This document shows positions 58,257 to 62,676 of a stretch of DNA of 64,000 bases, one piece after another (position 1 is the stretch's first letter; every line of letters begins with the position of its first letter). The notes beneath the pieces were generated by a model. That model had not been told where the DNA came from and did no database searches. It was given only the letters and a program-made list of their open reading frames with translations. The DNA lies in contig NZ_AWNH01000084.1 of assembly GCF_000482245.1 (NCBI RefSeq), positions 1 to 64,000 of the forward strand, given 5' to 3'. The translations under genes and the position numbers were made by a program. This DNA is from Leptolyngbya sp. Heron Island J. GTDB lineage: Bacteria > Cyanobacteriota > Cyanobacteriia > Phormidesmidales > Phormidesmidaceae.

Positions 58257-58302
58257 GTCGAGCTAAACAACAAACGATTCATCGTAAAACTGGACAGCTT
58301 TT

Positions 58303-58320
58303 CTTAAGGCAACCCTTAAG
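58303..58320. repeat. 18-bp palindrome upstream of phnF
   Basis: CTTAAGG, CAAC, CCTTAAG. It has the same 7-4-7 geometry as the palindrome before phnC but a different sequence. It could be an operator or chance. Confidence 0.35.
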
Positions 58321-58373
58321 GTAGTGTGCAAGACAGAACTCCCTGCTAACACTAATACAGCTGATAATTAGAT

Positions 58374-58403
58374 AGGTTAAAAGCGGGTTAAACTGTGGGT
58401 AAT
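58374..58403 (-). promoter_or_regulatory. Candidate Pho box (reverse orientation) before phnF
   Basis: On the minus strand three 8-base units spaced by three bases read ATTACCCA, TTTAACCC and TTTAACCT. The cyanobacterial Pho box consists of such repeats of (C/T)TTAA(C/T)(C/T)(T/A); the three units match at 6, 7 and 8 positions. It ends 13 bases before the phnF ATG and points towards the phosphodiesterase remnant. Confidence 0.55.
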
Positions 58404-59133: not shown

Positions 59134-59241
59134 AAAACAATGGGTACCAGACCGTTGCTAAGGGGGGCACGGTGACGACCCAATCTGAACCATGATCGAA
59201 GCGGCAGCGAATAATTGTTAACAAATGCTGTAATCTCAGCT

Positions 59242-59271
59242 CTTAACCTGAATTTACCCCAATGTTAACTT
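59242..59271 (+). promoter_or_regulatory. Pho box upstream of phnC
   Basis: CTTAACCT-GAA-TTTACCCC-AAT-GTTAACTT: three 8-base units spaced by three bases. The units match (C/T)TTAA(C/T)(C/T)(T/A) at 8, 6 and 7 positions. A fourth looser unit (TTGGTTTA) continues the phase. This is the site type bound by PhoB/SphR in cyanobacteria. It lies 170-200 bases before the phnC start. Confidence 0.7.
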
Positions 59272-59329
59272 ACCTTGGTTTATCTCTTAAGCTGCTAGCG
59301 ATGACAATGTCATTGAACAGATTTAGTTA

Positions 59330-59347
59330 TAGATGTCTATACATCTA
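59330..59347. promoter_or_regulatory. HutC-subfamily GntR operator candidate (PhnF site)
   Basis: TAGATGT-CTAT-ACATCTA is a perfect 18-bp palindrome. Its centre ATGTCTATACAT fits the published HutC-type consensus NyGTMTAKACNy at every position. It lies between the Pho box and phnC, where a repressor would block transcription; phnF is the adjacent HutC-type gene. Confidence 0.65.
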
Positions 59348-59440
59348 AATTTTTAGAGCTTGCAAAAGCCTTTTAGGGTTGCTGGTGGCAGGTTCCTGCT
59401 CCAGGTGCTCCTTTGAGAAGCTATACCACCGGTCGAGTCA

Positions 59441-60256
59441 ATGAATTCAGAGATGATGTCAACCCAGACTGCTGTCCAGGTCAGCAATTTATCCAAAACC
59501 TTTAGAGGTCAGCCTGCTTTACAGGATGTCAGCATGCGTGTAGCTACGGGTGAGATGGTGGCTCTGGTCGGGGCATCGGGCTCGGGTAAATCTACACTAC
59601 TGCGTAATCTCAATGGTTTGCAGCAGGCTGATGCTGGTCGAGTGGAGATATTTGGAAATGTGTTGCAGCTAGAAGGTGAACTCCATTCCAAAGCCCGTCA
59701 GCTGCGCAGTCAAATCGGTTTTATTTTTCAACAGTTTAATTTAGTAAACCGGCTAACAGCCCTAGACAATGTGCTGGCGGGCAATCTGTCCCAGGTCCCT
59801 GTGTGGCGCTCCCTGGTTCGCAACTTTACTAAGGTAGAAAAGATGCGAGCCCTGTCTGCCCTGGAGCGAGTGGGGATTTTGGAACAGGCTCATAAACGGG
59901 CATCCGCACTCTCCGGTGGTCAACAGCAGCGTGTGGCCATCGCTCGCTGTTTGATGCAAGGAGCCAAAATTATTTTGGCCGATGAACCGATTGCTTCCCT
60001 GGACCCGGATTCGGCACGTAAGGTCATGGAGCTGTTGACCATTCTTAATAAAGAGCAAGGTATCACCGTTGTTACTTCACTACACCAGGTACAAGTGGTG
60101 CAGCGCTATTTTCAGCGTTCCATCGCCCTCCGCCAGGGGCAAGTTTGTTTTGACGGTTATACGGTTGATTTGGATGCAGCTCGCCTCAACAGCATTTATG
60201 GATCAGCCGCTGAAGAGTTGGTAATGAGCGGTCACAGTGAGGTGTTTGCTAGCTAG
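59441..60256 (+). CDS. phnC: Phosphonate/phosphite-type ABC transporter ATPase
   Basis: The 271-residue ATPase powers the importer with PhnD and PhnE. It shows Walker A GASGSGKSTLLRNLNGL (about residues 43-59), the Q-loop IGFIFQQFNLVNRLTALDNVLAG, the signature LSGGQQQRVAIARCL, Walker B IILADEPIASLDP and the switch TSLHQVQVV. The QQFNLVxRLxxLxNVLxG segment is characteristic of PhnC. The start is an ATG at 59441, 59453 or 59456; none has a strong ribosome binding site. Confidence 0.93.
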   Translation: MNSEMMSTQTAVQVSNLSKTFRGQPALQDVSMRVATGEMVALVGASGSGKSTLLRNLNGLQQADAGRVEIFGNVLQLEGELHSKARQLRSQIGFIFQQFNLVNRLTALDNVLAGNLSQVPVWRSLVRNFTKVEKMRALSALERVGILEQAHKRASALSGGQQQRVAIARCLMQGAKIILADEPIASLDPDSARKVMELLTILNKEQGITVVTSLHQVQVVQRYFQRSIALRQGQVCFDGYTVDLDAARLNSIYGSAAEELVMSGHSEVFAS

Positions 60257-60328: not shown

Positions 60329-61387
60329 ATGGCTATTACTTCCTGGCGTCGATTCGCCTCTTTGTTGGCGATGTCTACAATGATGATCAGCACGCTGGCA
60401 GCCTGTAGTGGTGCTGGTGATGTGACTAATACAGCAATAGATACTGCTAGTTCGGTTACTGAAGGTGGCACCTGTGCAGCGGATATTGCCGAAATTGAGT
60501 TTGGGATTATCTCCACTGAGTCGGCTGATAACCTGAAACCAGTTTGGGAACCGCTGTTGGCCGATATGACTGAGGCCGTAGGACGTCCGGTTAAAGGGTT
60601 TTATGCAACTGACTATGCCGGTGTGATCGAAGGGATGGGAGCTGGTAAAGTTCACATCGCCTGGTACGGTGGTAAGTCTTATATTGAAGCAGCTGAACGT
60701 TCTGGGGCGGAAGCGTTTGCTCAGACGGTCGCCCTGGATGGGACTAAGGGATATTATTCTCATTTGATTACCAACAAGGAGAACTCCATTGTTAATGAGA
60801 TTGACCTGGAGGCCGGTGATGGCGACAAGTATATTGTTGAGAATGCCGCTGACCTGACCTTTGCTTTTAACGATCCTAATTCCACATCTGGATTCTTGGT
60901 ACCTAGCTACTATGTGTTTGCTGAGCAGGGTGCTAACGCTGACAGAATCTTTAGCGAGCTAATTTTTGCGGGTAGTCATGAAGCTACTGCATTGGCTGTT
61001 GCTGAAAATCAGGTAGATGTGGCCACTAACAACAGTGAGAACCTGGATCGATTGAAGGAAACTGCTCCAGATGCCCTTGAGAAGATTCAGATTATTTGGA
61101 CATCCCCTGTAATTCCTAGCGATCCTCTGGCCTATCGTCAGGATCTACCGGATTGTTTGAAGGATTCTATTAAAGATTTCTTCTACACCTATGACAACCA
61201 GGAGGTGCTTGAAGGTTTGCAGTGGACTAAGCTAGACCCTGCTGGTGATGAAAATTGGAACACAATTCGTGAATTACAAATCGCTAAGGATATTCTGGAA
61301 GTGCAGAATGATGAAAATCTCAGCGATACTGATAAACAGACGCAGCTGGATGAGTTAAACCAAAAGCTGGAGGCTGTTAAGAACTAA
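60329..61387 (+). CDS. phnD: Phosphonate/phosphite-type binding lipoprotein
   Basis: PhnD is the periplasmic binding protein. The signal peptide has a lipobox LAACSGAG (Cys about 26). Family features include IEFGIISTESADNLKPVWEPLLADMTEAVGRPVKGFYATDYAGVIEGMGAGKVHIAWYG (split over about 55-115), the NDPNSTSGFLVPSYY motif that binds the phosphorus oxyanion, and AVAENQVDVATNNS. The NPNSTSGF-type motif and GGKSYIEA fit phosphonate binders such as PhnD rather than clear PtxB, but phosphite cannot be excluded. A GGA-containing sequence precedes the ATG. The transcript carries a hairpin just after this gene. Confidence 0.93.
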   Translation: MAITSWRRFASLLAMSTMMISTLAACSGAGDVTNTAIDTASSVTEGGTCAADIAEIEFGIISTESADNLKPVWEPLLADMTEAVGRPVKGFYATDYAGVIEGMGAGKVHIAWYGGKSYIEAAERSGAEAFAQTVALDGTKGYYSHLITNKENSIVNEIDLEAGDGDKYIVENAADLTFAFNDPNSTSGFLVPSYYVFAEQGANADRIFSELIFAGSHEATALAVAENQVDVATNNSENLDRLKETAPDALEKIQIIWTSPVIPSDPLAYRQDLPDCLKDSIKDFFYTYDNQEVLEGLQWTKLDPAGDENWNTIRELQIAKDILEVQNDENLSDTDKQTQLDELNQKLEAVKN

Positions 61388-61410
61388 TCTCTTACTCACC
61401 AAATATGTCT

Positions 61411-61444
61411 AACACGGGTAGCCAAAAGCTACCTGTGTTTTCTT
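61411..61444 (+). terminator. Partial terminator/hairpin between phnD and phnE
   Basis: AACACGGGTAGC, CAAAA, GCTACCTGTGTT form a 12-pair stem (one G-U pair) followed by TTTCTT. It begins 24 bases after the phnD stop. It would lower phnE expression and protect the phnD mRNA end. It also makes the ATG at 61405, just before the stem, an unlikely phnE start. Confidence 0.6.
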
Positions 61445-61464
61445 GCTATTTACTTGTTAATGTC

Positions 61465-62304
61465 ATGTCTAAGTCGGTTGCTAACTCTCAATCCCAGTCT
61501 GATAGTCTTGTTTCGGCGGAGGTCATGCATGTGCTGGCCCAGGAGAAAAAACTAGTGACGCCAATACGGATTGTGTGGTTGCTAGTTGCGATCGCAGTCT
61601 TAGCCTACGCTGCCCAAAAAAGTGATCTCAGTTTTGTCGAGTTAGCCGAAGGTACGGGCAACATGGCTGAATATGTCAGCCGTTACTTTCCCCCCGACTT
61701 CACCGACTGGAGGTTTTACCTCTCAGACATTTTAGAAACCATCGGCATGGGTATCTGGGGCACCCTGATGGCGTCTATTCTGGCGGTGCCCCTAGCGATT
61801 ATGGCTGCCGAAAACGTTGCCCCACTTTGGCTGGTCTTTATCATTCGCCGATTTATGGACGCCATGCGGGCCATTAATGAAGTTGTTTTTGCCTTGATTT
61901 TTGTGGTCGCTGTTGGGCTAGGTCCCTTTGCTGGTGTGCTGGCCTTGTTTGTTCATACCACGGGCACCCTCGGCAAACTATTCTCAGAAGCCATTGAAGC
62001 CATTGACCCTGGCCCAGTAGAAGGCATTCGAGCGACCGGTGCCTCCAAGCTACAGGAAATTATCTTTGGGGTCGTTCCCCAGGTAATTCCCCTATGGACA
62101 TCCTTTACCCTCTATCGGTTTGAAGCCAACGTTCGCTCAGCATCTGTATTGGGCATCGTGGGGGCAGGTGGTATTGGCGTTTCACTTTACCAAAGTTTTC
62201 GAGCGTTTAAGTATGGCAAAGTTTCTGCTATTTTGATTATTTTAATCCTGGCCGTAAGCCTGATTGATACAGCGTCAGCTAAAATTCGTCAACGCCTGAT
62301 CTAG
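61465..62304 (+). CDS. phnE: Phosphonate/phosphite-type ABC transporter permease
   Basis: The 279-residue inner-membrane permease has six predicted membrane segments: IVWLLVAIAVLAYAAQ, then IGMGIWGTLMASILAVPLAIMAA, INEVVFALIFVVAVGLGPFAGVLALFVHT, and the last pair around ASVLGIVGAGGIGVSLY and ILIILILAVSLIDTA. The EAA coupling loop is EAIDPGPVEGIRATGASKLQEIIFGVVPQ. The motif FMDAMRAINEVVFALIF is typical for PhnE. An ATG at 61405 is in frame, but it overlaps the hairpin and adds 20 residues that do not look homologous, so 61465 is preferred. Confidence 0.92.
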   Translation: MSKSVANSQSQSDSLVSAEVMHVLAQEKKLVTPIRIVWLLVAIAVLAYAAQKSDLSFVELAEGTGNMAEYVSRYFPPDFTDWRFYLSDILETIGMGIWGTLMASILAVPLAIMAAENVAPLWLVFIIRRFMDAMRAINEVVFALIFVVAVGLGPFAGVLALFVHTTGTLGKLFSEAIEAIDPGPVEGIRATGASKLQEIIFGVVPQVIPLWTSFTLYRFEANVRSASVLGIVGAGGIGVSLYQSFRAFKYGKVSAILIILILAVSLIDTASAKIRQRLI

Positions 62305-62313
62305 GAGGAACGC

Positions 62314-62676
62314 GTGGGAATTGAACTGTTGCTATATTTAAGCCTGGGTCTTGGTGTTGGTACTCTCAGTGGTCTCATTGGCATTGGCGGGGGTGTTTTG
62401 ATTACCCCCGCTTTAATCTATCTATTTGGATTTTCACAGCACAATGCCCAGGGCACCACGTTAGCTCTACTGGTTCCTCCCATCGGTCTGTTGGGAGCCT
62501 GGACTTACTTTCAGCAAGGCCATGTTGATGTGAGAGCGGCTACACTTATCTGTCTTGGATTTGTGTTTGGAGGACTCATGGGAGCAAAGTTAGCCATTGG
62601 CTTGCCAGAACAATTATTGCAACGAGTCTTTGGCGTTTCGCTAATTGCAGTCGGTATCCGGATGCTCAGTCGTTAG
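62314..62676 (+). CDS. TSUP (TauE/SafE) family transporter, half-size
   Basis: A 120-residue membrane protein of the TauE/SafE group (sulfite/organosulfonate exporters). It has four hydrophobic segments and the signature LSGLIGIGGGVLITPALIYLFGFSQHNAQGTTLAL (split over about 19-52). Full TSUP members have about 250 residues with two such halves; this is one complete half. It starts with GTG, nine bases after the phnE stop, behind a strong AGGAGG, so it belongs to the phn operon. It may move a phosphonate-derived or related anion; this is inference. A strong terminator follows. Confidence 0.85.
   Translation: MGIELLLYLSLGLGVGTLSGLIGIGGGVLITPALIYLFGFSQHNAQGTTLALLVPPIGLLGAWTYFQQGHVDVRAATLICLGFVFGGLMGAKLAIGLPEQLLQRVFGVSLIAVGIRMLSR

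Follow-up and report, generated by a model that had tools for sequence, protein, structure and literature searches.

The control region in front of the phnCDE-TauE transport operon of the marine cyanobacterium Leptolyngbya sp. Heron Island J very probably integrates two inputs, activation by SphR and repression by PhnF. The region lies in a stretch of 64,000 nucleotides (referred to as the window in the following), which is part of a cyanobacterial assembly of 8.06 Mb. The plus strand carries, in this order, phnF, phnC, phnD, phnE and a half-size TauE/SafE gene, and the gap of 307 bp between phnF and phnC (59134-59440) contains both a tandem Pho array and a HutC-type operator. The relevant features are as follows.

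58374-58403, minus strand: second Pho array (21/24), its end lying 13 bp ahead of the start codon of phnF; with conserved counterparts in L051-L054 and L056
58417-59133, plus strand: phnF, GntR/HutC-family regulator (TIGR02325; Pfam GntR and UTRA)
59242-59271, plus strand: three-unit Pho (SphR-type) array; conserved in L051, L052, L053 and L056
59275-59293, plus strand: in-phase continuation of the Pho array, with TTGGTTTA at 59275 (5/8) and CTTAAGCT at 59286-59293 (7/8)
59303-59308, plus strand: weak candidate for a -10 element, GACAAT (pattern NANAAT in five relatives)
59330-59347, plus strand: putative HutC/PhnF-type operator TAGATGTCTATACATCTA, fitting the HutC consensus and conserved
59441-60256, plus strand: phnC, transporter ATPase (TIGR02315 above cut-off)
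60329-61387, plus strand: phnD, phosphonate-binding protein (TIGR03431 above cut-off)
61405-62304, plus strand: phnE, permease (TIGR01097 above cut-off)
62314-62676, plus strand: half-size TauE/SafE gene (Pfam TauE), the final gene of the cluster, retained in relatives

The Pho array before phnC is composed of the units CTTAACCT at 59242, TTTACCCC at 59253 and GTTAACTT at 59264, which are spaced 11 bp apart and match the unit consensus YTTAAYYW quoted in PMC9846622 at 8, 6 and 7 of 8 positions, reproducing the values of an earlier sequence-only reading; against the stricter CTTAACCT, the scores are 8, 5 and 6. In two respects, the array has the properties of a cyanobacterial SphR Pho box, consisting of at least three tandem 8-bp repeats with 3-bp linkers and occupying a conserved position in a phosphorus-acquisition promoter (before phnC in five genomes). 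It is continued in phase up to 59293, including the unit CTTAAGCT, which had escaped that reading, while the second and fourth units are weak (6/8 and 5/8). The segment 59275-59293 is so well conserved, spacer included, that it may also contain core-promoter elements. Three-unit Pho sites of this quality are expected 0.0003 times per 307-bp gap under an order-3 null and 0.06 times per 64 kb; the window contains two, each scoring 21/24 and both at phn genes, namely the array at 59242-59271 and the one on the reverse strand at 58374-58403. When the three-unit pattern is relaxed to allow up to three mismatches, the array at 59242 is the sole match in the 8.06-Mb genome, which counts as supporting evidence because the pattern was composed after the array had been seen.

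The core GTCTATAC of the operator matches GTMTAKAC, the central part of the HutC-subfamily consensus NyGTMTAKACNy (PMC4494728), and lies inside an inverted repeat, which bears out the earlier assignment to the operators of HutC-subfamily GntR regulators. The site is no perfect 18-bp palindrome as had been stated, since 16 of the 18 positions of TAGATGTCTATACATCTA agree with its reverse complement; the family consensus does not demand perfection. The distance of 58 bases between the three-unit Pho array and the operator (59271 to 59330) had been given correctly, and the operator is located 36 bp past the last in-phase Pho unit. The sequence TGTMTAKACA is expected by chance 0.001 times per phnF-phnC gap. 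Another inverted repeat, ATGACAATGTCAT (59301-59313), was considered as a second operator and dropped, as it is not conserved in the relatives.

The phnF-phnC layout is common to five genomes (the window, L051, L052, L053 and L056), and the starts of CTTAACCT and of TGTCTA(T/G)ACA are 92 bp apart in all five of them, while the distance from the operator to phnC, its start being taken from the longest open reading frame, ranges from 93 to 181 bp. Invariant columns comprise 8/8 of the first Pho unit, 17/19 of the segment 59275-59293 and 9/10 of the operator core, compared with 2/20 in the flank just upstream and 0/17 just downstream. The site is real and seems to be functional. Two further conserved traits of the locus are a block CTTAAGGCAACCCTTAAGGTAGTGTGC at 58283-58325, upstream of phnF, which is present in three relatives, and the half-size TauE/SafE gene, which closes the phn cluster in relatives as well (L041, L051, L052, L055). 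The metagenome-assembled genome RM1_1_2 (L055) carries the TauE/SafE gene directly after phnF; phnCDE are absent there, and a phnG remnant of 40 residues lies nearby.

The product of phnF reaches 205.3 bits against the PhnF equivalog model TIGR02325 (cut-off 156.8), combines a GntR helix-turn-helix domain (PF00392) with a UTRA effector domain (PF07702), and shares 93-94% identity with its counterparts in Leptolyngbya sp. PCC 7375 and Adonisia turfae CCMR0081. Residues R45, H46, T47 and R49 of its recognition helix are invariant across the relatives, and both curated models and relatives of solved structure already assign the protein to PhnF. The genome encodes many PhoB-like regulators, none of which scores above the PhoB cut-off; the gene at C112:124386 is only a candidate for SphR, and the best match to the PhoB model, on contig C72, adjoins a kinase and was not taken as SphR.

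HutC-family regulators are usually repressors that are released by a ligand. In the proposed mechanism, phosphate starvation would lead to binding of phosphorylated SphR to the tandem array at 59242-59293 and to recruitment of RNA polymerase, while PhnF, produced from the adjoining upstream gene, would occupy 59330-59347 beyond the Pho array and block transcription, given where we infer the operator to lie relative to the phnC transcription start. Induction would be completed by the release of PhnF, probably upon binding of a phosphonate or of a phosphorylated ligand related to it. Dual control by the Pho regulator and PhnF, as advanced in the sequence-only reading, is well supported by the conservation of both sites at fixed spacing in five genomes, their recurrence at phosphonate operons and the adjoining gene for a PhnF equivalog. 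Full expression of phnCDE would then probably be limited to conditions of scarce phosphate and released repressor; the further claim that these genes need both inputs would amount to a strict AND gate, which may apply here. The helical phasing of Pho units relative to operators was also considered across the promoters and set aside, because the sample is too small.

The recurrence is seen at several other loci of this genome. The C-P lyase genes are located elsewhere, on contig C59 (phnG-L and phnM), where an operator precedes the phnG start by 46 bp and phnM is preceded by a Pho box and then an operator, both arrangements being conserved in Leptolyngbya sp. PCC 7375 and Adonisia. On contig C96, the gene for a second PhnF (PhnF2) is flanked by phnX and by an aminoethylphosphonate-type transporter; an operator lies between phnX and phnF2, and the transporter is preceded by a Pho box and an operator. 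Pairs of Pho box and operator accordingly recur before phnM and before this transporter, and the two elements adopt another geometry at phnG. Exact TGTMTAKACATCTA sites occur at five distinct positions genome-wide, three of which belong to phosphonate operons; the exact operator matches at C8:76180 (near a copper-type ATPase) and C117:69905 were regarded as chance matches, as phosphonate genes are not nearby. A Pho box is also found upstream of a PstS-like gene of the same genome, and neither Pho box nor operator was found at a lone second phnD (contig C12) or at a ptx-like transporter (contig C70). The second phnD (L013 8630-9721) scores above the PhnD cut-off and has no adjoining phnC or phnE. 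In the cluster on contig C96 (L012 3422-10722), phnX lies beside genes for an FAD-dependent oxidoreductase, the second PhnF and the transporter, and no phnW was seen; the oxidoreductase may take the place of the transaminase. In G170, a member of the same family, and in several more distant cyanobacteria whose phnF and C-P lyase genes are divergent, one gap holds both operator and Pho box. Among 386 sampled cyanobacteria, phnF and phnG occur in the identical 10 genomes. SphR and PhnF would also be expected to coordinate the C-P lyase genes at their separate locus (phnG-L, phnM), and the aminoethylphosphonate-type operon may likewise be coordinated by PhnF or by the paralogue PhnF2.

It seems unlikely that the Pho array alone governs phnCDE, with starvation by itself fully inducing uptake and the operator serving PhnF feedback or fine tuning, although the expression data from Nodularia lend some weight to this idea. 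In genome G284, taken as Nodularia spumigena CCY9414, phnDCE is preceded by a Pho-like box (20/24; L132 8279-8308, minus strand, about 360 bp before phnD) and lacks an operator, and RNA-seq under phosphate limitation recorded log2 changes of +7.2 for phnD and +4.7 for phnC (PMC9846622), indicating that uptake genes can dispense with PhnF under starvation alone. The same study, which itself states that a conserved P-box was not found, recorded +1.5 for phnG, +0.9 for phnJ and -0.35 for phnF (PMC9846622), and the phnF-phnG gap of G284 contains a Pho box abutting an operator, behind which phnG and phnJ are located. In strain UHCC 0039, methylphosphonate was needed for sustained induction of phnJ, and phnD rose without phosphate (PMC5955973). 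This pattern fits gating by PhnF but is not proof of it, because the Pho box in the phnF-phnG gap faces phnF rather than phnG, so that the weak rise of phnG could also reflect orientation. In the lineage of Leptolyngbya, however, the nearly invariant operator core and its fixed spacing to the Pho array argue for a real role in the control of phnC.

Unlikely as well is an assignment of the operator to PhnF2, alone or shared with PhnF, by which aminoethylphosphonate would govern phnCDE via PhnF2. PhnF2 is 47% identical to PhnF, shares its recognition-helix residues and has the same GTCTAGAC core at its own locus; yet the phnF gene lies directly upstream of the operator in question, and PhnF together with this operator is present in the relatives MAG.088 and G388, where PhnF2 was not detected. 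That both motifs arose by chance in an AT-rich gap is hardly credible, since their shortness and degeneracy and the two weak Pho units are outweighed by the low expectations per gap (about 0.0003 and 0.001) and by the conservation of both in five genomes, which effectively refutes this explanation.

Dual control by SphR and PhnF may be complicated by the second Pho array at 58374-58403, which had been overlooked previously and because of which the phosphate and PhnF inputs may not be independent. Conserved Pho arrays on the reverse strand are present at both phnF and phnG within the genus, and G170 has one at phnG as well; further instances at these genes are L002 5836-5876, L099 1269-1310, L100 11692-11721 and L102 408-449. 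The array at phnG separates the PhnF operator from the start codon, and a sigma70-like promoter (TTGCAT, 16-17 bp, AATAAT) is located upstream of the operator; phnF retains its reverse array although the window has no divergent gene there. Classical activation by SphR from such positions is hard to picture, which makes these arrays puzzling; they may serve anti-repression, form a roadblock, or be a relic of the divergent phnF promoter that has been conserved. It is conceivable, if rather doubtful, that phosphorylated SphR does not act as a classical activator at these arrays but as an anti-repressor displacing PhnF or as a roadblock cutting its synthesis; if true, one regulator would work in opposite geometries within a single regulon.

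For Mycobacterium smegmatis, Gebhard and Cook reportedly proposed in 2008 a dual control involving SenX3-RegX3, and the PhnF site of this species is said to have the same GTATAGAC core as the operator described here. Both systems have a gene for a HutC-family PhnF beside the phn transporter genes and a PhnF-type site in the promoter, but phnF is divergent in M. smegmatis, where the shared gap has two PhnF sites, whereas it is co-directional here, with one clear site before phnC. PhnDCE of M. smegmatis carries phosphate, with C-P lyase absent, whereas phnG-M are present here with the same operators; in addition, an SphR-type protein takes the part of the phosphate regulator, and these operators also mark the C-P lyase and aminoethylphosphonate-type operons. 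According to a review, PhnF represses phnDCE of M. smegmatis and phosphate limitation induces it (PMC7866108). In cyanobacteria, Pho boxes were predicted before the phn operons of PCC 7120, IMS101 and Synechococcus B' as part of the SphR regulon (Su et al., 2007; PMC1906773); these share the tandem 8-bp units resembling CTTAACCT and spaced 11 bp apart, but neither repressor operators nor reverse-strand arrays at start codons were described. The survey of HutC-subfamily operators (Suvorova et al., 2015; PMC4494728) agrees with the present case in the consensus and in a regulator with matching helix-turn-helix and UTRA domains, and includes one cyanobacterial regulator of this subfamily, so the regulon considered here was essentially unsampled. 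E. coli has the corresponding transporter, regulator and C-P lyase genes in phnCDEFGHIJKLMNOP, likewise under a Pho box, but there they form a single operon whose Pho box precedes phnC, whereas several dispersed transcription units with an operator each are found here.

No report of such dual control in cyanobacteria was found in the literature searched, and the best reading is that a kind of control with a mycobacterial precedent is extended here to a dispersed C-P lyase regulon. If this is right, phnJ transcripts would be a readout of phosphonate availability only where PhnF operators occur, which would bear on the use of phnJ as a marker of methane release from methylphosphonate.
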